DNA from: Chitinophagales bacterium
GTDB taxonomy: Bacteria; Bacteroidota; Bacteroidia; Chitinophagales; Chitinophagaceae
Length of the DNA stretch: 64,000 nucleotides
Direction of reading: 5' to 3'
NCBI GenBank assembly: GCA_017303395.1
Contig: JAFLBN010000010.1
Location: 45,726 to 109,725, forward strand
Part shown: in pieces, positions 24,172 through 28,705 of the stretch
How the letters are laid out: the number at the start of each line of letters is the position of its first letter
Numbering within the stretch: the stretch's first letter is position 1
Translations under genes and position numbers: made by a program
The notes under the pieces: generated by a model
What the model was told of the DNA's origin: nothing
Databases searched by the model: none
The model's input: the letters and a program-made list of their open reading frames with translations, nothing else

Positions 24172-24215
24172 CGAATGTATGTGTGAAGCAAATATGAAAA
24201 ATTGACGTATGTCAA
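24172..24215 (-). promoter_or_regulatory. Palindrome plus -7-like box upstream of paralogue 1
   Basis: On the minus strand TTGAC-ATAC-GTCAA (24202-24215) is followed after exactly 22 bp by TACATTCG (24172-24179), then 15 bp to the ATG. The palindrome resembles a Crp/Fnr-family half-site pair. The spacing places its centre about 41-42 bp before the likely transcription start. Confidence 0.65.
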
Positions 24216-24288
24216 ATAAAAGTAAGTGGCTATAATAATGAAGTTTACTATTAGTTTGTAGTTAATAGCAGTAATAGATATTGTACAA

Positions 24289-24313
24289 AAAAGCCACCGT
24301 TGAGGTGGCTTTT
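24289..24313 (-). terminator. Intrinsic terminator of T9SS paralogue 2
   Basis: Stem AAAAGCCACC/GGTGGCTTTT with loop GTTGA, directly after the stop codon at 24316. Nearly the same hairpin follows paralogue 3. Confidence 0.8.
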
Positions 24314-24315
24314 AC

Positions 24316-25602
24316 TTACTGAATAATTATTTGTGTGGAGTTAATTTTTGTTTGTTTATCGTGTATGGATAGTATGTAGGAACCTGCAGATAGTTGGGTA
24401 TTGATAATTGCATTGTGGGTTTCGGGTAGTGATTGAGTATAAACTATTCGCCCTTGCATATCTGTAATGACAACACCATTAAAATTTGCAGTACCGGCAT
24501 TTATGTTTATCGTGCCTTTTGACGGATTTGGGGCAATCGTTACCGGAATGTTCGCACTAACACTGCCGACAGATGTCAGGCCATAGGTTTGAAAATAAAA
24601 GTAGTTTTCAGTGAATGGTAATGTGGCATACCTGTTTGCCCCAAGGTGCTTGTAGTACTTGATGGCTGTTATGAGTTTGTATGCTGTGTCGTAGTAGGTG
24701 ATTTTTCTGTGTAGTGTATCTAATGACGGACCATACTGATAGATAAGTGTATCGGTAAGTTTATTGCTGCTGAAAAACACAGATTTTTGTTCGCCTTTCT
24801 GCCATATTGCCTGGTTATCATTCCAGTCGTAAATGCTGTGTTTATTAAATACAGTATCTGTACCGCGATAGGTAAAGCTGTCTAATCGTGTATTGATAAA
24901 GACACCATTGATGTTGTACAGGTGCAGGATGCTGATAAGTCTGTTTCGGCTATCGAACTTTTTTGTAGTAATAGATGCATGCCCCCATAGTGTACCGTCA
25001 AAGTAATAGGTGTTGCACAAAGTATCATTGCCTCTGACATCATAACTGTAAAGTTTTTTTGTGTGAGGTGATGCGTATTGGATGTAATAATTGCTGTCTT
25101 GTATCAATTTACCTGCAGTGTTATAGGCAAATGTACGATTGTAAGCATTGGTGAGTGTGCCGTTCATGTCAGTGTCCACGAAGTTTAATAAAACAGGCTT
25201 GCCGAGTGTATTGTATGTAATGTTGCAATGCTTTCTCTGGTTGTCAATATCTTTTATAACAAATCCTTCTGTTTGATTTCGGGAATTGTATTTGTAAGTC
25301 CTGTTGAAGAATCTGGTTAGTCCTTTCCCTGGTACTAAGGAGTAGTTTACAGTAGAGTCGCAAAAAATACTTTGTGGTTCTATGTCGCTGTTCAGATATA
25401 AATCGTAGTAGCTTTTTTCGGTAGTATGTACAGAACCTCTGGTTAAACTGCTGTAGTAGTGGATGTTACTATCCATCAACATAGTCTCTGAGTATGAGGA
25501 CGATGCAATAAGGCGCTTTTTAGCAGCAGTTGTTTTTTGTGCCGGCTGTGCATATGCCGATGCGTATAATGACAACAGGAGTATTGAAATGTAAAGTTTC
25601 AT
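24316..25602 (-). CDS. T9SS-exported YD-repeat-like protein, paralogue 2
   Basis: The 428-residue protein has signal peptide MKLYISILLLSLYASAYAQ. The conserved opening is KKRLIASSSYSETMLMDSN, then HYYSSLTRGS and EKSYYDLYLNS. Tyrosine-rich repeat units follow, such as YSYDVRGNDT and FTYRGTDTVFNKH. The T9SS tail contains IAPNPSKGTININAG and VVITDMQGRIVYTQSLP. The ATG at 25602 was chosen because the 41-codon upstream extension runs through the conserved palindrome and -7 region and has no signal peptide. It is closest to paralogue 1, including the flanking intergenic DNA. Confidence 0.78.
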   Translation of the reverse strand: MKLYISILLLSLYASAYAQPAQKTTAAKKRLIASSSYSETMLMDSNIHYYSSLTRGSVHTTEKSYYDLYLNSDIEPQSIFCDSTVNYSLVPGKGLTRFFNRTYKYNSRNQTEGFVIKDIDNQRKHCNITYNTLGKPVLLNFVDTDMNGTLTNAYNRTFAYNTAGKLIQDSNYYIQYASPHTKKLYSYDVRGNDTLCNTYYFDGTLWGHASITTKKFDSRNRLISILHLYNINGVFINTRLDSFTYRGTDTVFNKHSIYDWNDNQAIWQKGEQKSVFFSSNKLTDTLIYQYGPSLDTLHRKITYYDTAYKLITAIKYYKHLGANRYATLPFTENYFYFQTYGLTSVGSVSANIPVTIAPNPSKGTININAGTANFNGVVITDMQGRIVYTQSLPETHNAIINTQLSAGSYILSIHDKQTKINSTQIIIQ

Positions 25603-25618
25603 AGAATATCGATTTATA

Positions 25619-25662
25619 CGAATGTATGCGCCATGCCAATTCGAAAAATTGACGTTTGTCAA
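25619..25662 (-). promoter_or_regulatory. Palindrome plus -7-like box upstream of paralogue 2
   Basis: TTGAC-AAAC-GTCAA (25649-25662), a 22 bp spacer, then TACATTCG (25619-25626) and 16 bp to the ATG, all on the minus strand. The spacer sequence differs from paralogue 1 over most of its length while its size is kept. Confidence 0.65.
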
Positions 25663-25734
25663 ATAAGAGAGTGTGGTTGTAATAACACGGCTTACTATTA
25701 GTTCGCAGTTAATTATACTATACAATATTGCATA

Positions 25735-25763
25735 AAAAGAGCCACCGTTCAGGTGGCTCTTTT
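25735..25763 (-). terminator. Intrinsic terminator of T9SS paralogue 3
   Basis: A 12 bp stem AAAAGAGCCACC/GGTGGCTCTTTT with loop GTTCA, five bases beyond the stop codon at 25769 in the direction of transcription. Confidence 0.82.
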
Positions 25764-25768
25764 CGTAC

Positions 25769-27046
25769 TTACTGTATAACTAATTGTGTGGAATTGATTT
25801 TTGTTTGCTGCTTGTTGTGTATGGTTAGTATATAAGTACCTGCCACTAGCTGCGTATTGATGACTGTATTGTTGGTTTCAGGTATAGCTTTGTTATAAAC
25901 AATGCGCCCTTGCATATCTGTAATGCTAACATGGCTGAATGTAGTAGTATTAGTATTCACAGATATAATGCCTTTTGAAGGGTTGGGTGTAACGGTGATA
26001 TTGTGAGTGATTGCAGTATTGCTGATAGATAATGATGGGTCATAATCTTCGTAGTATATTTTTAACTCATCGTAGTTGTTGGCACGATAAGTACCTGTTG
26101 CAGTATTGTACTGGTATGATTTGCTGTAGAGTAGCAGTCCAGCAGTATCGTAGGTATTCACGTTCATTTCGGTAGTATCCCACTGTGTACTGTATTTATA
26201 TAAATAAGTCGTGTCTATCAGGTCTTTACTATTGTAGTGGTATATGTGGTAATAATCATTCTTCCAGGAAGATGTAAGTGTATCCCATGTGTAGTGATGT
26301 TTAGTGGCGGGAAATTTGTAAGTGCCGGCATAGCTAAAGCTATCTTTAGATTCATATATTTTTGATGCGTTAATCGTGCCGAAATCTGAGCGATATAGTG
26401 TTTTACGGTCTTGTGCGTCATAGCTGTGGAAAGAAGTATTGTCTAATATCCAGCCTGTAAATATGAAAACATAACTCTCCTCTTTTGTAAGGTAGTTTTT
26501 GATGTTGTAACTATATTTAATAACAGAAACAGGGAAGTTGTTCTTTTGGCTATATTGACTATCTACAGTCAATTTGCCTGATGTATTGTAGAAATAGTAG
26601 CGAAAGTCGTTTGCTATTTCTGTGCCATTCATGGTATCGGTATAGTTTTGGCCCACTAGTTGTTTTGATGAGTTGTAATATCTTTCAGATCTGCTTGATG
26701 TAGCATAAGATGTATTTTTCAATACCATGTCAATAAGCGTACCATCACTATTGTATTTATATATGCGTGTCTCATTTCTTAATAAGCTGGAAGAGCCACT
26801 TGTCCAACTGATGGAAGAATCGCTCCTGATATCCTGAGGGCCGGTAGATAAACAAGAGTAATTATCAAAATAACTTTCTTTGGTAGTATTAGCAGAACCG
26901 CGGCCCATGCTGTAGTAATAGTGGTTGCTATCGGAGATACCACCATTTATGGAATATGATGTGGCTATTACGCGTTTCTTTAATGTTGGTTGTGCTAAAG
27001 CCGTAATGCTTAACAAAATCAGCAGTATTGATAAAAAAGATTTCAT
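25769..27046 (-). CDS. T9SS-exported YD-repeat-like protein, paralogue 3
   Basis: The 425-residue protein has signal peptide MKSFLSILLILLSITALAQ. The conserved block is KKRVIATSYSINGGISDSNH, then YYYSMGRGSANT and KESYFDNYSC. Repeat units such as YKYNSDGTLIDMVLKN, YFYNTSGKLTVDSQY and YHYNSKDLIDTTYLY give a clear YD-like periodicity. The tail has VTPNPSKGIISVNTN and VSITDMQGRIVYNKAIP. It is more diverged in the middle than paralogues 1 and 2, yet keeps the same upstream palindrome. Confidence 0.78.
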   Translation of the reverse strand: MKSFLSILLILLSITALAQPTLKKRVIATSYSINGGISDSNHYYYSMGRGSANTTKESYFDNYSCLSTGPQDIRSDSSISWTSGSSSLLRNETRIYKYNSDGTLIDMVLKNTSYATSSRSERYYNSSKQLVGQNYTDTMNGTEIANDFRYYFYNTSGKLTVDSQYSQKNNFPVSVIKYSYNIKNYLTKEESYVFIFTGWILDNTSFHSYDAQDRKTLYRSDFGTINASKIYESKDSFSYAGTYKFPATKHHYTWDTLTSSWKNDYYHIYHYNSKDLIDTTYLYKYSTQWDTTEMNVNTYDTAGLLLYSKSYQYNTATGTYRANNYDELKIYYEDYDPSLSISNTAITHNITVTPNPSKGIISVNTNTTTFSHVSITDMQGRIVYNKAIPETNNTVINTQLVAGTYILTIHNKQQTKINSTQLVIQ

Positions 27047-27061
27047 AGAAAATAATTTGCG

Positions 27062-27105
27062 CTAATGTAGGTGTATGCTACAGGCAAAAACTTGACTTAA
27101 GTCAA
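27062..27105 (-). promoter_or_regulatory. Palindrome plus -7-like box upstream of paralogue 3
   Basis: TTGAC-TTAA-GTCAA (27092-27105, a fully symmetric 14-mer), a 22 bp spacer, then TACATTAG (27062-27069) and 15 bp to the ATG on the minus strand. Outside these two boxes the sequence has diverged from the other two promoters, so the boxes appear to be selected. Confidence 0.68.
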
Positions 27106-27152
27106 AATGGGATTGCTGTGACTGATATTTGACGCTATTGTTACAATAGGCT

Positions 27153-28562: not shown

Positions 28563-28705
28563 GCTTTTTAATAATTTTTATCAAAATGACATCAAAACCA
28601 TCAGACAGTATGGGGGGATTTTGTTTTGTTAAGAATGTAATGACAATAGTATTGCATTTGTAGGCGTTAATGTCATGGTAGTATCATTACAATGTCAGAT
28701 AAATA

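Follow-up and report, generated by a model that had tools for sequence, protein, structure and literature searches.

Palindromes and promoter-like boxes at a cluster of paralogues

The 64,000-nucleotide stretch of the Chitinophagales bacterium genome analyzed here (contig JAFLBN010000010.1 of assembly GCA_017303395.1; hereafter the window) carries four paralogous genes on its minus strand, whose products end in a type A sorting tail of the type IX secretion system (T9SS). Upstream of the first three lies a palindrome at a fixed distance from a promoter-like box (Table 1). Read along the minus strand, each region consists of TTGAC-N4-GTCAA, 22 base pairs (bp), the box (TACATTCG, TACATTCG and TACATTAG for paralogues 1, 2 and 3) and then 15, 16 and 15 bp to the ATG. 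A preliminary description of this DNA had reported this arrangement, and our reading bore it out, with all three palindromes exact. It had also noted one shared mismatch position in the boxes, which proved to be the seventh position of the Bacteroidota consensus TAnnTTTG, and spacers that keep their length while those of paralogues 1 and 2 differ in letters from that of paralogue 3; this was found again, spacers 1 and 2 being partly alike. The window holds no exact TTGAC-N4-GTCAA other than these three. When up to two mismatches were allowed, 28 matches were observed vs. 30 expected by chance, and it is the exact form alone that is distinctive.

The N-termini of paralogues 1-3 resemble signal peptides, as judged by eye. 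Upstream of paralogue 4 no TTGAC-N4-GTCAA site was found. Each gene in the cluster is probably its own transcription unit, since a GC-rich stem and a T run were seen by eye between the genes; in a stem scan, the minus-strand stems listed were confined to the two ends of the cluster, and a single plus-strand stem was listed between paralogues 3 and 4.

Table 1. Cluster features in window coordinates, and exact palindromes elsewhere in the genome that have a box at 22 bp (contig:position)
Feature	Sequence	Position	Strand	Remark
Paralogue 1, 425 amino acids		22879..24156	-	T9SS type A sorting tail
-7-like box 1, 22 bp past operator 1	TACATTCG	24172..24179	-	1 mismatch vs. TAnnTTTG
Operator 1	TTGACATACGTCAA	24202..24215	-	exact palindrome
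Paralogue 2, 428 amino acids		24316..25602	-	T9SS type A sorting tail
-7-like box 2, 22 bp past operator 2	TACATTCG	25619..25626	-
Operator 2	TTGACAAACGTCAA	25649..25662	-	exact palindrome
Paralogue 3, 425 amino acids		25769..27046	-	T9SS type A sorting tail
-7-like box 3, 22 bp past operator 3	TACATTAG	27062..27069	-
Operator 3	TTGACTTAAGTCAA	27092..27105	-	exact palindrome
Paralogue 4, 452 amino acids		27204..28562	-	T9SS type A sorting tail; without operator, excluded from regulon count
Exact site with box at 22 bp	TAGATTTG	C1:423889
Exact site with box at 22 bp	TAGTTTTG	C1:424782
Exact site with box at 22 bp	GAATTTTG	C1:206465
Exact site with box at 22 bp	TATCATTG	C13:51404

A fixed spacing in the genome and its relatives

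To our knowledge, the activator-dependent promoters of the Bacteroidota are little mapped. The main sigma factor of this phylum uses an unusual -7 box. Its promoter consensus, as given in a passage of PMC7366714, combines TTTG near -33 with TAnnTTTG at -7.

A genome-wide search for the palindrome with its box had been set beforehand as the test of the preliminary description. The genome (3,760,363 bases) was scanned for the plain palindrome and the flanks were then read for a box with at most one mismatch. Eight exact palindromes were found, compared to four for the reversed control, and seven of them have the box at exactly 22 bp (four of the five outside the window cluster). Over spacings of 5-60, every distance other than 22 had at most one box among these sites. 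Such boxes occur at 0.75% of window positions per strand; at this rate the naive probability of seven in eight is 1.3e-12, and that of four in five outside the cluster is 2.5e-7, or 1.2e-5 at a cautious rate of 2%. The test thus came out in favor of a non-random spacing.

The raw number of palindromes says little, because with up to one mismatch the reversed control outnumbers the palindrome in this genome (173 vs. 76), and in many relatives it is likewise the commoner of the two. One-mismatch palindromes were considered as extra regulon members and rejected, as 22 bp was not enriched: among 42 fetched from the 68 in the genome (26 unlisted), two had a box at this distance, and several other spacings scored equal or higher.

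Exact palindromes summed to 156 over 58 other genomes. We scored 62 of these, in the loci supplied and in 20 chosen stretches, some picked for likeness to the window cluster. The box was at 22 bp in 16 of the 62, of which 13 belong to the same genus, and the next-best spacing had four. A chance origin of the palindrome-box pairing was rejected on the spacing profiles of the genome, of these relatives and of the 80 regulator loci described below.

Among the relatives, L123:1215-1265 (genome G034) has two identical TTGACAATTGTCAA palindromes 37 bp apart, one of which has a box (TAGTTTTG) at 22 bp. At L115:1687-2345 (G009), three palindromes lie downstream of similar GGGCTTGACCCGCAATCTACTT-like stretches, which are perhaps an interspersed repeat that produces the motif by chance.

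Crp/Fnr genes adjoin the sites

Three of the five exact sites outside the cluster adjoin two small Crp/Fnr genes. The gene at C1:424230 is flanked by the sites C1:423889 and C1:424782 and has its stop codon inside the second palindrome; another Crp/Fnr gene ends directly beside C1:206465. The genome has 20 loci that match the cyclic-nucleotide-binding family PF00027, about 16 of them of the short kind. None of the 20 lies on contig C2, and a regulator adjoining the window genes was therefore rejected.

Inverted repeats with 4 or more of 5 pairs and a box at 22 bp were found between -6 and +38 bases relative to the regulator stop codon at 11 of the 20 loci, and with the box at 23 bp at two more. 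The repeats vary (TTGAY, TTAAC, TTTAC, CTAAC); that behind the longer regulator L018, counted among the 13, is unrelated. With G008 and G012 included (41 loci), spacing 22 occurred 23 times and any other at most five times. Chance may account for five of the 23, which are 80-112 bp past the stop codon, and for at least three of the 41 loci (L010, L024, L243) the reading frame was taken wrong or short.

A second regulator subgroup (KPESLSR/KPQSLSR/TPQSLSR; L248, L249, L250, L252, L253, L241, L242) has TTMACTTAAGTGAA-type sites behind the gene at 23 bp; in two further relatives, L267 and L275, the spacing of this repeat is 22 bp. Recognition helices and half-sites were compared by eye for a code, and no simple rule was seen.

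Species genomes were scanned with three aligned regulators and the best 80 of 256 loci were kept, with taxa that include Chitinophagaceae, Cytophagales, Flavobacteriia, Paludibacter and Marinifilum; many are evident orthologues with similar next genes. The zone from 25 bp before to 250 bp past the regulator stop codon was searched at spacings of 8-40. TTGAC-N4-GTCAA (up to one mismatch) with a box had 66 occurrences at 22 bp, and no other spacing had more than one. Independently of the letters, a perfect 5-N4-5 inverted repeat of any sequence had a box at 22 bp in 45 cases vs. at most three elsewhere, and at 73 of the 80 loci a repeat with at least 4 of 5 pairs had one at 22 or 23 bp. In stretches away from the regulators there was no enrichment (two at 22 bp, up to three at other spacings).

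In 70 loci the site lies at exactly 22 bp with no more than two mismatches, and their consensus is TTTTGAC/T-N4-GTCAAA followed by the box TAnnTTTG; the length of the spacer is fixed, while its middle letters have no preference. TTTG was absent 18-22 bp upstream of the box in all 70. The preliminary description had taken the missing -33 element as a sign of activator dependence. The absence itself stands, and shows, as far as can be read from the letters, that the operator occupies the -33 place; its weight is lower than supposed, because the palindrome fills that place and the absence is not separate evidence.

The regulator proteins

The proteins of this Bacteroidota group are about 186-210 amino acids long. 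In their predicted architecture, a cyclic-nucleotide-binding-type barrel is followed by a dimer helix and by a wing-less helix-turn-helix whose last element is the recognition helix. When three regulators were scanned against Pfam, the PF00027 barrel was found in all three and no helix-turn-helix family matched at E 0.01. In an alignment of 20 regulators an ASYLGI...LSR block is found near the C-terminus; E-x-x-S-R is present in the recognition helix of 17, and S and R of LSR/FSR are invariant.

A predicted structure of L207 (Bacteroidetes bacterium 43-93; overlapping the G009 locus L117) had a mean predicted local distance difference test score (pLDDT) of 95.8. Its helix-turn-helix is made of helices 166-173 and 177-185, and the chain ends with the recognition helix and has no wing strand after it. 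A fold search with this model returned 3DN7 as best hit and FNR/CRP structures next, and the model has a Crp/Fnr superfamily fold without the wing. The C1:424230 protein alone had no solved relative at E 0.01. We looked for the cysteines of an FNR-type iron-sulfur protein in its first 40 residues, and found none.

Promoter geometry and the proposed mechanism

Activation from a class II position, where the activator site is centered near -41.5, is classic. According to PMC7349173, FNR class II promoters have the center of the site at -41.5, and their -10 hexamer occupies positions -12 to -7. Given this center and hexamer, 22 bp follow the 14-mer in FNR class II promoters, which is the distance between operator and box in the window. 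The position of the operator center here depends on the predicted start, and is computed as -40.5 or -41.5 if the box ends at -4 or -5.

We therefore regard it as very probable that the three window promoters are of the activator-dependent class II type and that small Crp/Fnr proteins without a wing act on them. From the operator position, the preliminary description had proposed a Crp/Fnr-family activator that switches the genes on together. Comparative sequence gives the class II Crp/Fnr reading good support, with sites that adjoin Crp/Fnr genes and a 22 bp rule that recurs behind such genes across the phylum; the joint switching is an inference. Each of the three genes would have its own promoter of this kind. 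A small Crp/Fnr dimer would bind TTGAC-N4-GTCAA centered near -41, the downstream half-site of the operator would replace the -33 element, and the bound dimer would contact the RNA polymerase that opens the -7 box, a weak TAnnTTTG, at exactly 22 bp past the operator. Regulators of the group would often act on the next gene, via an operator behind or overlapping their own stop codon.

Could the bound protein instead be a repressor of the Crp/Fnr family, which blocks the -33 region and allows transcription upon its departure? The site does overlap the expected position of the RNA polymerase. A repressor, however, would need neither one exact spacing nor spacer letters that are free to vary around it, and no palindrome with box was found within 275 bp upstream of the 80 regulators in the same or the divergent direction, i.e. 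no site of the autoregulatory type. Repression is in our view quite unlikely.

Beyond the window, we find it fairly likely that wing-less Crp/Fnr activators form a class that spans the Bacteroidota, with about 16 members in this genome. Many would be linked to the next gene through an operator that overlaps or closely follows the regulator stop codon, 22 bp (in one subgroup mostly 23) from the -7 box. A few, like the one proposed below, would have left this local wiring to run small regulons in trans.

Several observations weigh against these readings. The exact palindrome at C12:37413 sits within a reading frame and has no box. The 80 loci are rich in orthologues of one regulator and related by descent, so their counts are not independent, and the absence of TTTG at 19-22 bp is nearly forced by the palindrome's own letters. 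The layout is incomplete among PF00027 genes, with 13 of 20 here and 10 of 21 in G008 and G012 together (22/23 bp, up to 40 bp from the stop codon). A search with C1:360404-type proteins gave 12 of 26 scored loci with any repeat plus box.

Which regulator serves the window genes

We lean slightly towards the Crp/Fnr protein encoded at C1:424230-424787 as the regulator that serves the three window promoters in trans, as judged from the distribution of its sites. The protein would act on six promoters, those of the window genes included. Its locus holds two of the eight exact sites in this genome (G000), both at 22 bp, and the six-promoter set recurs in two sister species. Strict orthologues (95-96%) were found in two of the 14 other genomes of the genus, G002 and G008, i.e. 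in three of 15 with G000. At both sister loci a palindrome lies at the operon start and another behind the regulator gene, and all four have the box at 22 bp (one of those in G002 was read from L085). The operon here (L008:5890-6180 vs. L105 and L108) is without the alpha/beta hydrolase and 222 amino acid genes of both sisters, with promoter and regulator kept.

G000, G002 and G008 are the genomes that have both the C1:424230 orthologue and TTGAC sites at the paralogues, with three exact sites in G008, and two exact plus one with one mismatch in G002. The same is seen for the small membrane-protein gene C13:50907, which has a site in G000, G002 (one mismatch) and G008 only, and none in four other genomes with a homologue and no regulator. 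Distant single homologues of the paralogues in G004, G005, G007 and G010 have no site, and the homologue in G011 lies at a contig end and could not be read.

These data also bear on whether the three sites are functionless relics of one duplicated upstream region. Paralogues 1 and 2 do have upstream letters in common, but paralogue 3 differs around its site, G002 and G008 retain the sites and G012 has altered versions of them, and the same pair recurs at the same distance at four other places in the genome; we consider relics extremely improbable.

The assignment to C1:424230 is tempered by the fact that G000, G002 and G008 are close sisters, so that the co-occurrence of regulator and sites may reflect shared descent, and by G012, which keeps TTAAC...GTCAA at two of three paralogues (22 and 23 bp) without an orthologue of C1:424230. 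Another Crp/Fnr protein, e.g. of the C1:360404 type, could thus serve the window sites. This would leave the class II reading intact and place the trans regulator among the rest of the roughly 16 small Crp/Fnr proteins, which we hold possible, and less probable than C1:424230. It gains from the C1:360404-type protein of G012, which has the site TTAACTAAAGTGAA at 23 bp. However, sites of the window type are perfect TTGAC at 22 bp in this genome and its sisters (one with one mismatch, in G002), as at C1:424230, whereas proteins of the C1:360404 type mostly pair with TTAAC/GTGAA at 23 bp; the own site of C1:360404 is TTAACTTAAGTGAA, at 23 bp.

Two other elements were noted at the cluster. Upstream of paralogue 4 and its relatives, 83-93 bp before the ATG, lies CAATACTATTGTCATTA or a near variant (window 28638-28654, minus strand). 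Elements of this type were found in five of six such upstream regions (G000, G004, G005, G010, G012), with no match in G007, and may be a different promoter. The other is an inverted repeat distinct from the operators, CTATTGTTACAATAG (window 27135-27149), some 30 bp upstream of operator 3; G002 retains it, and G008 does so in part.

Comparison with known systems

The palindrome itself is already known for HcpR in other phyla. Parts of Rodionov 2005 (PMC1274295) give a predicted HcpR operator, wyTTGACnnnnGTCAArw, for delta-proteobacteria and cyanobacteria, which contains TTGAC-N4-GTCAA and is practically identical to the motif found here. The targets differ: HcpR controls hcp and related genes according to the same pages (PMC1274295), whereas the neighbors here are T9SS-tail, YiaA, alpha/beta hydrolase and unnamed lipoprotein-like or membrane-protein-like genes. 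No hcp or nitrogen-oxide genes were among the targets looked at, with no search aimed at hcp. The apparently new part is the 22 bp rule and the operator-behind-stop layout in Bacteroidota, of which we found no description in the open-licence literature.

The best solved relative of the regulator profile is 3DN7 (E 2.4e-50), a cyclic nucleotide binding regulatory protein of Cytophaga hutchinsonii with 194 amino acids and, by sequence, the same short C-terminus. Its DNA-binding end is probably not resolved in the structure, since the chain in the fold library has about 146 residues, with 143 columns aligned. We know of no operator or regulon for this protein. CrpPg of Porphyromonas gingivalis (PMC12040651) is, like the regulators proposed here, a Bacteroidota Crp-type regulator, and binds DNA without cyclic nucleotides; it differs in being described as a global regulator with a box like that of E. 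coli Crp, and the portion of PMC12040651 that describes it mentions no 22 bp rule.

If the proposed class holds, regulator, operator and target could be paired from sequence alone, and a simple rule could give operators and targets to a large uncharacterized regulator family. The recognition helix of FNR has E-x-x-S-R, as in most of the aligned regulators here. There are differences from the proteobacterial system: the fifth base is mostly C here and T in FNR sites, the -7 box is the Bacteroidota TAnnTTTG, the regulators are wing-less (and the C1:424230 protein lacks N-terminal cysteines), and the wiring is often local, from one regulator to the next gene. Nevertheless, FNR class II promoters, as outlined in part of PMC7349173, have an FNR-type palindrome of the same size and the same 22 bp to the -10 element. 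Such a common spacing would show that the geometry between activator and polymerase has outlasted the change in promoter letters.

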